Shown here piece by piece: positions 36,418-41,149 of a DNA stretch of 47,125 bases (positions are counted from its first letter, which is position 1; every line of letters starts with the position of its first letter). Both the position numbers and the translations under genes were made by a program. The DNA is from Candidatus Desulfovibrio gallistercoris (GTDB lineage: Bacteria > Desulfobacterota > Desulfovibrionia > Desulfovibrionales > Desulfovibrionaceae). Location: NCBI GenBank assembly GCA_019118745.1, contig DWYJ01000062.1, positions 1 through 47,125 of the forward strand, written 5' to 3'. The notes below the pieces were generated by a model, which worked only from the letters and a program-made list of their open reading frames with translations, was not told the DNA's origin and did no database searches.

Positions 36418-38214
36418 TCACCTTCCCCTCCCCTGCTTTCGCTGCCGTTGCCGTGACGCGGCAGGCCGTTCAAACTGCCGCTGCCCCTCATCCACGATCT
36501 TCTGGCCGTCGCTCAGGACAAGCACGGCCCTTCCCTTGCCGTCCTTCTCCAGACGCCGCACATGCCATTTGGCCGCCATGTAGGCCAGGGCCGTTTCCCG
36601 TGCGGACTCGCTGAAGCTGATCCGCCTCCCGGTATCGCAAATGCTGCCGCCGTTGGGCAGGGTGTAGATGATGACGCCATGCCGGGAAATTTTCATCGTG
36701 GTTCCGGGGGCGATACTCCGCATCAGGGCGTCGCTGAGCAGCGTTTTTTTCAGGCGGTCGGATACGCCCTTCCGCTCAAGGATTTCCGTCTTCCGGGCCT
36801 GCAAATCCGTCTGGCGCTGTATCTTTTCCTGTTCGGCCGCGAACTGTTCCGGCGCAAACTCCTCATGGCGGGATCGCAGGACGGCCAGCGCGGTTTCATT
36901 GCCCTGGGCCGCCTTTTGCCGCAGGAAGTCCATCCAGTTTGCCGGATAGCCGACAGTCAACTGATGCCGTTCCTGGGCGGCGTATTGGCGGGCCATTTTC
37001 AGGCCCGCACTCCGTGCTCGCCTGCCCACGGGCCTGCGCTGCAAGTCATCGCAGTAGTCCAGCCATTTCCGCTTGCTCGCCTCCAGCCTTTCCTGCTGCT
37101 CCTGCCGCGCGGCCTGAAATTCCTCCCACAGCTCTCCCCGGTTGGGCGCTTTCTGCAAGGGGGCTGCGCCATATCTGACACGGCTTTCGGGCATCTTTTC
37201 CTTGTCCGCCGCTGCAAACCTGCCGAAGCGTTCCTCCAGCTTCTTCAGCGACAGAGCGCGGTCGGCGGCGCTGGCCTTGGTCATCTGCTTGCCGTGCCGG
37301 TTCCGTATGACCAGCCCCGCGCCGCGCTTCTGCAAGACAAGGCCGCGTTCGGCCAGCAACGTATGCAGCTCCTCCCACGTTTGCAGGCTGTCCAGTCCGG
37401 CCACGATCTCCGACGCCTGTTCCTGGGCGTAGCCTTCAAAGGACTGCCTGCCGCTGTGCGCCTCCACGGTGGCCGCCGCGCTGCCCAGAGTCTTTTCCGG
37501 CCGCTTTTCCCGTCCGTTGTCCACCACAAGGCCATATTCTTTTTCCAGCTCGCGGCACAGCTTGTCGCGGGCGACATAATCCCGCCACGGCTCCACGCGG
37601 GTCAGCTTTTCGGGATGGATCAGATTATAGGCAACGTGCATATGCACGTTTTCGGTATTGATATGCACGCCGCAATGGCGCTGATGACCGGCAAGGCCCA
37701 GAGCCGCCGCAAAGCGTTCCTCAATGGCGCGGTAATCGTCGGGCGTCAGCCTGGGGGCGTCTTCCGGCCGAAAACTGACTATGAGGTGATACGTCTTTTC
37801 CTTGCTGGTGCGCGTGTTCAGGGCCTGGGTGTCGGCGACTTCCCGGATGCCAAGCTCGTAATCATCGCCTGCCCAGCAGCCGGACGCCCATTTCAGCAGG
37901 CACTTTTCTCCTGCGGCACGATCTGCGTCCCGTCGCAAACCAGCAGGGGCTTGTCGATCAGGGCGTGCATCAACTGACAGAAGACTTGCACCTGATCTTT
38001 CTTCGCCTTCTCGTCCCTGACGATGTGCCAAACCGAGTTCGGACAGCCGACGCAGGCGGTTTTCGGCAAGGTTTCCAAGCTCTCCAGGGTGATGCTGCGG
38101 TGTGTAGGTTCTGACATTCTTCCGCTCCCTTGCGTGGTCATGCCCGGCAATATAGTTCGCCAGCCGTGCATAGCTGTCGTTGGCGGGATGACAGGCGATG
38201 CGTTTGCTTATCAT
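36418..38214 (-). CDS. traI: MOBP/TraI-type relaxase with an N-terminal insertion
   Basis: A 598-aa relaxase that would nick oriT and stay bound to the 5' end. N-terminus MISKRIAC ... LANYIAG carries the probable catalytic Tyr21 (RP4 Tyr22). DTQALNTRTSKEKTYHLIVSF and the His motif HCGVHINTENVHMHVAYN (near 182-196) complete the relaxase domain. Between residue about 29 and 100 lies an extra Arg/Leu/Ala-rich segment, after which the conserved frame resumes at GEKCLLKWASGCW. That extra DNA carries a separate gene in another frame (37893-38117). The C-terminal half is basic and helical. ATG overlaps the traJ-like stop by 4 nt. Confidence 0.9.
   Translation of the reverse strand: MISKRIACHPANDSYARLANYIAGHDHARERKNVRTYTPQHHPGELGNLAENRLRRLSELGLAHRQGREGEERSGASLLSVDARPDRQAPAGLRRDADRAAGEKCLLKWASGCWAGDDYELGIREVADTQALNTRTSKEKTYHLIVSFRPEDAPRLTPDDYRAIEERFAAALGLAGHQRHCGVHINTENVHMHVAYNLIHPEKLTRVEPWRDYVARDKLCRELEKEYGLVVDNGREKRPEKTLGSAAATVEAHSGRQSFEGYAQEQASEIVAGLDSLQTWEELHTLLAERGLVLQKRGAGLVIRNRHGKQMTKASAADRALSLKKLEERFGRFAAADKEKMPESRVRYGAAPLQKAPNRGELWEEFQAARQEQQERLEASKRKWLDYCDDLQRRPVGRRARSAGLKMARQYAAQERHQLTVGYPANWMDFLRQKAAQGNETALAVLRSRHEEFAPEQFAAEQEKIQRQTDLQARKTEILERKGVSDRLKKTLLSDALMRSIAPGTTMKISRHGVIIYTLPNGGSICDTGRRISFSESARETALAYMAAKWHVRRLEKDGKGRAVLVLSDGQKIVDEGQRQFERPAASRQRQRKQGRGR
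37893..38117 (-). CDS. Cys-rich 74-aa protein nested out of frame inside the relaxase gene
   Basis: A 74-aa frame, wholly inside traI and shifted by +1. Strong SD-like purine run (GGGAGCGGAAGA) stands directly before its ATG. The product looks like a real zinc-type protein: TACVGCPNSVWHIV, QVQVFCQLMHAL, LLVCDGTQIVPQ (C-x2-C ... C-x3-H ... CDG). Short proteins of this style occur near IncP-type relaxase genes, to my recollection. The relaxase reading of the same DNA is low-complexity, so the nested frame is probably the one under selection here. Function unknown. Confidence 0.6.
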   Translation of the reverse strand: MSEPTHRSITLESLETLPKTACVGCPNSVWHIVRDEKAKKDQVQVFCQLMHALIDKPLLVCDGTQIVPQEKSAC

Positions 38215-38549
38215 AGCTTGAGGATGCGCTCTTTCAGCATGGCTTGCATCTGGTCAATCGTGTGCAACAGGCCGTGGATCCGCTCCCTGCTCTGCCCCTG
38301 GCTCAAGGCTTGCTTCAGCAAGCCGCCCAGACGGCCCAAGTCCGCGTTCACCTTCAGCAGCTCCCGCCGGGCCTGCAGGTCTTCCCTGCTCTCCACCCTG
38401 CTGCCCAGACATACCTTTCTGGCGAACTCCGAAAGTGACAATCCTGCCCTTTGGCTGGATGCCAGGATTTCGCCATATTCCTCCATGTTCACGTTGACCG
38501 TGATGCTCAGGCCCCGTTTTTGAGTGTCCGGCAGTTTGGGCCGTCCCAT
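38211..38549 (-). CDS. TraJ/MobC-type relaxosome accessory protein
   Basis: A 112-aa protein opening MGRPKLPDTQKRG, then a ribbon-helix-helix-like strand and helices (LSITVNVNMEEYGEILASSQRAG, SLSEFARKVCLG) and a helical tail. This is the pattern of IncP TraJ/MobC proteins that bind next to nic and recruit the relaxase. SD AGAGGG precedes the ATG. Directly upstream of traI, with a 4-nt overlap. The transglycosylase frame runs through the whole gene in another phase. Confidence 0.78.
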   Translation of the reverse strand: MGRPKLPDTQKRGLSITVNVNMEEYGEILASSQRAGLSLSEFARKVCLGSRVESREDLQARRELLKVNADLGRLGGLLKQALSQGQSRERIHGLLHTIDQMQAMLKERILKL

Positions 38550-39018
38550 GCTTCCCTCTCAAATGCCGCCAGACGCGCCATGCGTAGCGTCGTCCACGTT
38601 CCTTGTCCGGCGAGTGATATTTCCCCACGGCCTGCCAGTTGAACCCGTGCCGCCGGATTTCGCCGGCCAGAATGTGGACGCCGATTTCCACATTCCTTTG
38701 AGGGTCAAGCAGTTCCTCCGCCGTAATGCCCAACTTCCCGAACCATTGATTGTTGATTTGCATCAGGCCGACGTCATAGGATTTTTTTCCGGCCTCCGCC
38801 CTGCGGATGTAGTCGAGGGCCTGCCCGACGCTGCGCGGCCGCAGAGAGTGGCCCTGGATGTTGATGGCAAGATGGTTCAGGGAGGATTCCTGCCGGGCTA
38901 TGGCGACGGCCAGCTCACGCGGTATGCCCGCGCGGGCGCACGGTTCGCTGAACACATCGCCCGCACGGGATACTTGCGGCCACCATGCCAGCAGGCAAAG
39001 CAGCAGCCATTTTTTCAT
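38254..39018 (-). CDS. VirB1-type lytic transglycosylase, running on through traJ
   Basis: The frame encodes 254 aa, but only the first 155 or so look like a transglycosylase: signal peptide (MKKWLLLCLLAWWPQVSRAG), catalytic Glu44 in AIARQESSLN, YDVGLMQINNQWFGKLGI, and YAWRVWRHL. It would open peptidoglycan for the secretion channel (RP4 TrbN role). From about residue 157 the frame continues out of phase over the traJ-like gene and reads as Gly/Gln/Arg-rich. A TGA one base out of frame sits at the expected end, just before the traJ SD, so a recent frameshift or deliberate overlap are both possible. Overlaps the rha gene by 4 nt. Confidence 0.8.
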   Translation of the reverse strand: MKKWLLLCLLAWWPQVSRAGDVFSEPCARAGIPRELAVAIARQESSLNHLAINIQGHSLRPRSVGQALDYIRRAEAGKKSYDVGLMQINNQWFGKLGITAEELLDPQRNVEIGVHILAGEIRRHGFNWQAVGKYHSPDKERGRRYAWRVWRHLRGKHGTAQTAGHSKTGPEHHGQREHGGIWRNPGIQPKGRIVTFGVRQKGMSGQQGGEQGRPAGPAGAAEGERGLGPSGRLAEASLEPGAEQGADPRPVAHD

Positions 39019-40151: not shown

Positions 40152-41021
40152 TTAGGGCAAGACAGATATGCACAAAGAGTCGACGGCAGCTCGGTGCTGA
40201 CTTGGGGCAAGATGGGCATACCGCAGGGTCATTTTAAGACTGGCATGCCCAAGAAGCTGACTCACCACCTGCAAAGGAACGCCCCCCTGTACCAACCAGG
40301 AGGCAAACGTATGCCGCAGGGTATGGAAGCAGACTTGTGAGCGCCTGTCCGAGACTCCAGCGTTGAAACCGCATTGACGCACGGCCTCACGAAAATGTCG
40401 TGAATAAGGGTTGAGGGGATTTCCCTTCGCATGGAAGAGCGGCAAGGCGGATTCGCTGACGGCAAGATGTTTTTGTGCTATGTTCATCGCCGTGTCATTC
40501 AACGGAATTGACCGGGCATGAAAGGTCTTGCTTTCAAGGATATGGCACTCGCGGTTGGTCAAATCGATCTGGGATGGCAACAGCGATAGCAGTTCTCCGC
40601 GCCGTAGCCCCGTGTTAAGGTCAAAAACCGCGACATCAGCCCATATTGGTGAAATGGTGTACAGGGTGGACACGAGGTTCGCCGCTTCGGAATGTGTCAG
40701 ATAGCGAATTCGGCGATTATCGAATTTCGGCATACGAATTTTGGGAACTGGCCCCGAGTACAGACCCCATTCAACGGCGCGGTTGAGAATTCGCCTGAGA
40801 AGGGATAGGCAGTGACAAACGGTTTGTGGAGCAAGTTTTTTTTCAAGCAGCGTCGCTCGGAATTTTGCTATCGTCAGCGCATTGATCTGCTCCAGCTCGT
40901 ATGCCGCCAGCTCCGGTGCAATATGATGTTGCCAGCGTCCAGTCTCCGTTTGACGGCTACGGCTGGATGTGGCACACAGAACGTAGTCGTGGTACAATAA
41001 AAAGGCATCATGGATTTTCAT
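40152..41021 (-). CDS. int: Tyrosine recombinase (ICE integrase)
   Basis: A 289-aa integrase that would recombine attP with the tRNA-Asp attB and, probably with help, excise the element. Catalytic residues visible: Arg in NTGLRRGELLSL (near 137), HTLRHTFASWL (H-x-x-R, near 236), and LGHASLKMTLRYAHL with the His and nucleophile Tyr (near 267). The N-terminal SAM-like core-binding domain spans about 15-100. Start MKIHDAF has GGAGG 7-8 nt upstream. Only 75 bp separate the start from attR, and the open frame continues upstream into attR without a stop. No excisionase gene is recognised. Confidence 0.93.
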   Translation of the reverse strand: MKIHDAFLLYHDYVLCATSSRSRQTETGRWQHHIAPELAAYELEQINALTIAKFRATLLEKKLAPQTVCHCLSLLRRILNRAVEWGLYSGPVPKIRMPKFDNRRIRYLTHSEAANLVSTLYTISPIWADVAVFDLNTGLRRGELLSLLPSQIDLTNRECHILESKTFHARSIPLNDTAMNIAQKHLAVSESALPLFHAKGNPLNPYSRHFREAVRQCGFNAGVSDRRSQVCFHTLRHTFASWLVQGGVPLQVVSQLLGHASLKMTLRYAHLAPSQHRAAVDSLCISVLP

Positions 41022-41096
41022 TGGGAAACCTCCAATCAGGATTGATGGATATGGACATCCATTTCCCCAAATCGGAGAAGGTTGCACTAGCTGTTC

Positions 41097-41149
41097 CCGG
41101 CCTGTCACGCCGGAGGCCGAGGGTTCGAGTCCCTTCCGCTCCGCCAGAA
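41097..41149 (+). repeat. attR: 53-bp copy of the tRNA-Asp 3' end
   Basis: Identical to 12001-12053. It lacks the tRNA 5' half, so it is a remnant rather than a tRNA gene. It marks the right boundary of the element. Confidence 0.93.

Follow-up and report, generated by a model that had tools for sequence, protein, structure and literature searches.

The relaxase gene in a 47,125-nt stretch of DNA from Candidatus Desulfovibrio gallistercoris (contig DWYJ01000062.1; the whole stretch is called the window here) contains a second, smaller reading frame that is very probably a gene for a short homologue of the TraH core, translated from its own ribosome binding site on the traJ-traI mRNA into a small protein that would most likely steady TraJ and TraI at oriT as TraH of RP4 does. 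Nesting of TraH within traI is already known from RP4 and the IncP plasmids. What is new is a slot inside the catalytic domain, a short and non-acidic form of the protein, the breadth of its occurrence, and its movement; the window gene belongs to a wider and more movable set of nested genes than annotation suggests.

The nested frame, its host and its product

The host gene encodes a TraI/MobA(P) relaxase by its score against NCBIfam NF041893 (408 bits, cut-off 250), and its matches to PF03432 and PF22863 (100.4 and 73 bits) are likewise above cut-off (Table 1). We take its Tyr21 to be the catalytic tyrosine, by analogy with Tyr22 of RP4 TraI. The TraJ/NikA-like product of the gene directly upstream reaches 68.7 bits against PRK13877 (TraJ), below the cut-off of 134. 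The window contains part of a conjugative element, with VirB11-, VirB4-, VirB6-, VirB9-, VirB10- and VirD4-like genes, and also carries an ArdC-like protein, an integrase and a type IA topoisomerase. Its nearest named locus (L002, uncultured Desulfovibrio) has a relaxase 99% identical to that of the window, and a search of plasmid DNA with the region returned one record alone, 10% covered and 70.7% identical. The structure model of the relaxase is poor, with a mean pLDDT of 67.2 and residues 1-121 below 50.

Table 1. Position of the nested gene and of associated features in the window
Feature	Coordinates	Strand	Remarks
traH-like nested gene	37893..38117	minus	74 codons plus TGA; +1 frame of the relaxase
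Shine-Dalgarno-like AGGGAG of the nested gene	38125..38130	minus	7 nt upstream of the ATG
Extra segment in the relaxase frame, residues about 28-101	37912..38133	minus	missing from sister relaxases; holds nearly the whole nested gene
TraI/MOBP relaxase gene, 598 aa, host of the nested gene	36418..38214	minus	NF041893, PF03432, PF22863
Tyr21 codon of the relaxase	38152..38154	minus	presumed catalytic tyrosine, by analogy
TraJ/NikA-like gene directly upstream	38211..38549	minus	PF21983 above cut-off; 4-nt overlap with the relaxase start

The nested frame lies wholly within the relaxase ORF, running from an ATG at 38117-38115, 97 nt from the relaxase start and hence in the +1 frame, to a TGA at 37895-37893. 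The preliminary description had placed a 74-codon +1 frame here, with a purine-rich Shine-Dalgarno sequence ahead of it; its coordinates are exact, and the AGGGAG has an anti-SD energy of -8.0 kcal/mol; among 428 other start codons in the +1 frame of 12 relaxase genes, 4.4% reach this value. The predicted 74-aa product, for which SITLESLETLPK is an example peptide, contains Cys22-x2-Cys25, Cys47-x3-His51 and Cys61-Asp-Gly. A start of its own, 21-28 codons ahead of the first cysteine, is present in all 12 insert-bearing Desulfovibrio loci (ATG in 11, TTG in L015). The Shine-Dalgarno energy is strong in five of these (window, L002, L014, L020, L007; -8.0 to -12.0), moderate in four (L003, L004, L015, L078; -5.6 to -6.9), and average in three (L018, L019, L022; about -3, the mean of the 428 other starts being -3.2).

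Profile alignment with hhalign of 17 Desulfovibrio-type nested proteins (the L023 protein included) to eight other TraH proteins gave 99.2% probability and an E-value of 1.2e-19 over 62 columns, by which the nested product is a short homologue of the TraH core. Aligning 46 selected sequences, P0007 not included, leaves 11 columns invariant, and Cys22, Cys25, Pro26, Trp30, Cys47 and Cys61-Asp-Gly do not vary in this set; L018 and L019 read CEG in place of CDG. When one Desulfovibrio nested protein was compared with PLSDB by tblastn, 334 records matched at E <= 1, and the genes lying over the best 20 of the 334 were 11 named as relaxases, two for LPD7 proteins and one for an AAA ATPase, with no listed gene for six. 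The fetched plasmid host genes, read in +1, contain the same cysteine pattern, the exception being Sedimenticola (L045), which has none. A search with 24 diverse sequences returned 487 proteins; among the best 120 of the 487, six are named TraH by their source, one of them with 'relaxosome stabilization'. The corresponding ORF of R751 has 130 aa and matches, with 100% identity from end to end, the traH that the pB8 annotation places within traI, the annotation of pB5 includes a traH homologue, and a listing in PMC3614916 gives a 130-aa traH with a 100% match to R751 TraH. A passage of PMC7314908 describes an acidic TraH encoded within traI in a different frame, which stabilises the TraJ-TraI interaction at oriT.

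The window form and IncP TraH, for which R751 was used in place of RP4, have in common the homologous core, the +1 frame inside a TraI/MOBP relaxase and a position downstream of traJ. R751 TraH (isoelectric point 4.30; P0148, 4.38) has an acidic N-terminal half, and its first cysteine falls at codon 596 of the 747 codons of traI, between LPD7 and the C-terminal domain. In contrast, the window form has 74 aa and a pI of 6.25 (five Desulfovibrio relatives, 4.95-7.68), and its first cysteine falls at codon 53, inside the relaxase domain. It is the C-terminal core alone and is not acidic; because the acidic Pro-rich N-terminal half is absent, we file the product by its sequence as a TraH-core homologue and not as TraH proper. 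Among known families, Pfam, NCBIfam, PHROGs and PDB sequences offered nothing above cut-off or convincing (the Pfam Mcm10 zinc motif scores 15.5 bits, cut-off 26.8), and a structure model of the small protein (pLDDT 73) had no Foldseek match with E <= 0.001. Its 'zinc-protein-like' nature is a guess from the four conserved cysteines. The view that overprinting of a catalytic relaxase is unusual stands for the slot within the catalytic domain; overprinting of a relaxase as such is not new, given TraH inside traI of IncP plasmids as reported in that passage of PMC7314908. Among the matches listed from the open PMC library, no title concerns TraH in Desulfovibrio or movement of TraH, and excerpts of PMC12857230 and PMC7690428 mention only other proteins called TraH.

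Conservation and selection in the two frames

A search with the nested product found 11 matching proteins, of which nine look intact; P0007 no longer has CDG at its end, and in P0011 relaxase and TraH sequence are joined as a hybrid. Of the 12 insert-bearing Desulfovibrio relaxases compared at the DNA level, all 12 have a +1 frame free of stops across the core. The significance of an open frame was judged against a null model in which the relaxase residues were held fixed and codons were redrawn from each gene's own usage in 5000 draws. In 16.5% of the draws for the window, and in 2.8-35.8% across six genes, the 68-codon segment used in the test remains open, and the six distant relatives are never all open together (0/5000). 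The nested-frame identity among these six loci is 0.536, compared to 0.215 +/- 0.014 under the null (maximum 0.285), about 23 standard deviations above it, and the draws keep on average 0.016 of the four shared cysteine columns and at most two. An open frame alone is thus unremarkable, but its conservation exceeds chance, and so the nested frame is a gene. The converse calculation, with the TraH residues fixed, gave a relaxase-frame identity in the insert of 0.435 versus 0.289 +/- 0.015 (maximum 0.354).

Shared descent inflates such identities, and ten overlapping windows downstream in the same genes served as a control. Alternative frames in these windows exceed their nulls by 0.003-0.098; the excess of the nested frame, 0.32, is far outside this range, and that of the relaxase frame, 0.146, is somewhat outside it. 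A cross-group comparison (17 host genes, Desulfovibrio against the rest, 42 pairs, 1000 draws) gave a TraH-frame identity of 0.365 versus 0.157 +/- 0.009 (maximum 0.186), an excess of 0.21, and a relaxase-frame identity of 0.263 versus 0.218 +/- 0.010 (maximum 0.253), an excess of 0.045. The small gene is the strongly conserved partner, and the relaxase frame for the most part follows it; the small excess that the relaxase frame retains lies above every draw and is larger within Desulfovibrio, and part of the conservation signal may come from the relaxase side. The preliminary description would have given up the nested gene had the frame been broken or the worse conserved of the two in relatives. 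It is open in all 12 insert-bearing Desulfovibrio relaxases compared as DNA and is the better conserved frame, but two of the 11 protein homologues, P0007 and P0011, look broken.

These measurements bear directly on what else the nested frame could be. The frequency with which single genes stay open under recoding is what one would expect if the relaxase frame and GC-rich codon use forced a frame that is no gene and only seems conserved. Such an origin is extremely unlikely given the joint openness of the six relatives, the size of the identity excess, the loss of cysteine columns in the null draws, and the occurrence of a homologous protein at other positions in other relaxases; a chance ORF was rejected on the null-model identity, the control windows and the cross-group comparison. 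The relaxase-frame excesses, within the insert and above the maximum of all 1000 draws across groups, would fit an insert that is primarily a relaxase domain with a role of its own, for example in oriT recognition, and a small ORF that is a secondary overprint. We regard this as unlikely, since the cross-group excess is about a fifth of that in the TraH frame, TraH homologues lie at other relaxase positions, and the segment is absent from 18 of the 105 classified relaxases and replaced by 15-31 residues instead of 79-88 in three more.

A further alternative concerns how the frame is translated. A programmed +1 frameshift could join the 5' part of the relaxase to the nested frame and produce a Tyr-helix-TraH fusion protein, and the hybrid P0011, a metagenomic protein of 107 aa, joins the relaxase N-terminus to the TraH frame in just this way. 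P0011 is a single record on a 1238-nt contig, and the nested gene has its own start in all 12 loci, which together make a frameshift very unlikely. Sequencing error, a lost copy and frameshifting are each compatible with the origin of P0011.

The favored interpretation, a TraH-core homologue with its own start, builds on the observed homology, nesting, frame, conservation of both frames, and existence of relaxases with and without the insert. The traJ-traI message would give rise to the TraJ-like protein, the relaxase and, from the internal start, the TraH-like protein, such that each relaxase message also yields the small four-cysteine protein and the supplies of all three would be tied together. 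Its four cysteines probably give the small protein a metal site, and, to judge from RP4, the protein would most likely associate with TraJ-TraI at oriT and stabilise this complex. In the host, traH DNA would be an in-phase insert after the catalytic-Tyr helix that the relaxase tolerates as a polar, Arg-rich loop.

Relaxases with and without the insert

Alignment identifies the segment that holds the nested gene as an insert in phase with the relaxase, about 72-81 residues long. It lies within the catalytic domain, where it separates the helix of the catalytic Tyr from the remainder of the relaxase domain, and the relaxase frame reads it as a polar, Arg-rich stretch. A relaxase search retained 585 proteins at E <= 0.001 among 7990 scored, and the best 120 of the 585 were combined with 12 insert-bearing and 12 insertless loci into 144 rows. 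The N-terminus or the EK motif was unrecognised by simple patterns in 39 of these (35 proteins, many with gene models that start downstream of the insert, and L020 and L061-L063), and they were left out; L061-L063 are without the insert on sight. In the 105 classified relaxases the spacing between YI of the Tyr helix and EK is 79-88 residues in 84, seven residues in 18, and 15, 20 or 31 in three. The relaxases with the seven-residue spacing read YIADASHQGEKSL or similar. P0091 and P0124 retain 20 and 15 residues, short remnants that look like in-phase losses, and P0110, with a gap of 31, is labeled as having the insert though it holds part only. The Pfam relaxase model is consistent with this division, matching the window relaxase from profile position 15 (residues 111-229) and that of the insertless L005 from position 1, at residue 21. 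The proposal in the preliminary description that a small gene fills an in-phase insert missing from relatives, with both products still readable, is borne out by alignment with relaxase homologues, in which sister relaxases lack residues about 28-101.

Gain and loss of the insert appear to be recurrent. A tree of the 105 Desulfovibrio-type relaxases and three outgroups (108 rows, 97 of them different) requires at least eight changes of the insert label, five of which are forced by well-supported branches, and bootstraps give 8-11. The empty P0081 and the filled P0024 match at 38-40 of 39-40 residues per block over alignment columns 161-400. Over the first 80 aligned residues P0081 instead resembles the empty lineage L058 (27/29, 12/12 and 39/40) more closely than P0024 (19/28, 10/12 and 33/40). 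This reads as one clear mosaic pair, known from proteins alone, in which filled and empty 5' ends were swapped between relaxases; P0082 and P0105 have a weaker version of the pattern, mainly in the first 29 residues. The DNA searched around insertless sister relaxases, a few kb per locus, contains no TraH match, from which it follows that such elements can in general do without the gene. A relaxase match (E <= 1e-20) is present in 23 of the 79 genomes of the genus, and the nested gene occurs in 10 of 288 genomes of the family and five of 395 in a sample of the phylum; a scan of viral contigs added one further carrier, L078. Relaxases with and without the insert on a near-identical backbone constitute a natural experiment on the role of TraH.

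Slots, frame and surroundings

The fetched loci contain 31 distinct TraH ORFs (32 rows, L038 appearing twice), comprising 13 from Desulfovibrio, 16 from plasmids (17 loci) and two others, and chosen by TraH or relaxase matches so that they are no random sample. All 31 are in +1 relative to the longest overlapping ORF on the same strand, and 29 lie fully inside it. The other two (L084 and L085, from another Desulfobacterota family) extend past the host 3' end, the relaxase ORF ending within the TraH-like ORF; this overlap at the 3' end is possibly an older arrangement. The host is a relaxase by a domain above cut-off, a clear match to the window relaxase or a traI annotation in 27 of 31. The hosts of L031 and L036 have no relaxase domain in Pfam and those of L040 and L047 have below-cut-off matches only; all four adjoin mobC or a relaxosome gene, and by N-terminal resemblance alone they are, less surely, divergent relaxases.

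Unannotated TraH-like ORFs with the same core and the same +1 frame are found in pTet (Campylobacter), a gonococcal conjugative plasmid, E. coli pNORD58_7, Polaromonas, Vibrio and Robbsia, but in other slots than in the window, with the first cysteine at host codon 228-236, 312-444 or 575-618. Relative to the relaxase domains, the window slot precedes the PF03432 match. In pNORD58_7 (codon 236) and Nitrosomonas (228) the slot is between the relaxase domain, which ends at 175-176, and the TraI middle domain, which starts at 286-299. In Polaromonas (codons 312 and 328) and L023 it follows the TraI middle domain, which ends at 284-301, and in Legionella geestiana (618) it is between LPD7 and the C-terminal domain, as in R751. 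L023 is the second relaxase of the sister genome G102, a relaxase-RepB primase fusion whose TraH-like ORF is also in +1 and differs from that of the window in having its first cysteine at codon 408 of 871. Two genomes carry a pair of relaxases, and every one of the four has a nested TraH-like ORF of its own (L018 and L022 in G096; L013 and L023 in G102). Fusion of a C-terminal domain cannot explain the first three of these slots, which implies that the gene moved or was captured more than once.

The constancy of the frame would follow from the avoidability of host stops by synonymous TraH changes. In +1, a host stop needs a preceding TraH codon ending in T, which always has a synonym. Accordingly, none of the 12 Desulfovibrio proteins has an unavoidable host stop in +1, and eight of the 12 have at least one in +2; the four that could live in +2 come, like all 12, from sequences already in +1. 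We tentatively propose, with slightly less than even confidence, that TraH is a portable, phase-locked overlapping gene. On this view it uses three or more slots when measured against the same relaxase domains, which requires two or more moves or captures, all of them into +1 since only that phase lets the host read any TraH through with synonymous changes alone; in Desulfovibrio, exchange of traI 5' ends would still be adding and removing it. The changing slot and constant frame offer a rare handle on the origin and movement of bacterial overlapping genes.

Most copies of TraH appear to have gone without annotation. Fifteen of the fetched PLSDB regions have a TraH-like ORF within a host gene that the PLSDB table lists; for 13 of these the table has an entry for the host only, and for the other two, pB8 and pB5, it has one for traH as well, in a table that is incomplete by its own account. 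With R751 TraH as query, 822 PLSDB records match at E <= 0.01; they include 209 from Campylobacter, 98 from Escherichia, 90 from Pseudomonas and 52 from Neisseria, with nesting checked in the fetched ones only. In hundreds of plasmids, a component of the relaxosome may thus have escaped notice.

Several features of the surroundings deserve mention in their own right. The relaxase ORFs of L014, L029 and L060 match residues about 255-357 of the window relaxase (TraI middle region) twice, beside the nested gene. In the window, a gene for a protein with a Rha-type phage regulator domain (PF09669; 39015-40097, minus strand) lies beside the conjugation genes and adjoins the integrase (40152-41108). 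A lytic transglycosylase ORF (38254-39018, minus strand) continues for about 100 codons beyond the conserved portion and shares 293 nt with the TraJ-like gene, which is read in a different frame; this tail looks incidental, because the length of the overlap varies from 32 to 293 nt across relatives.
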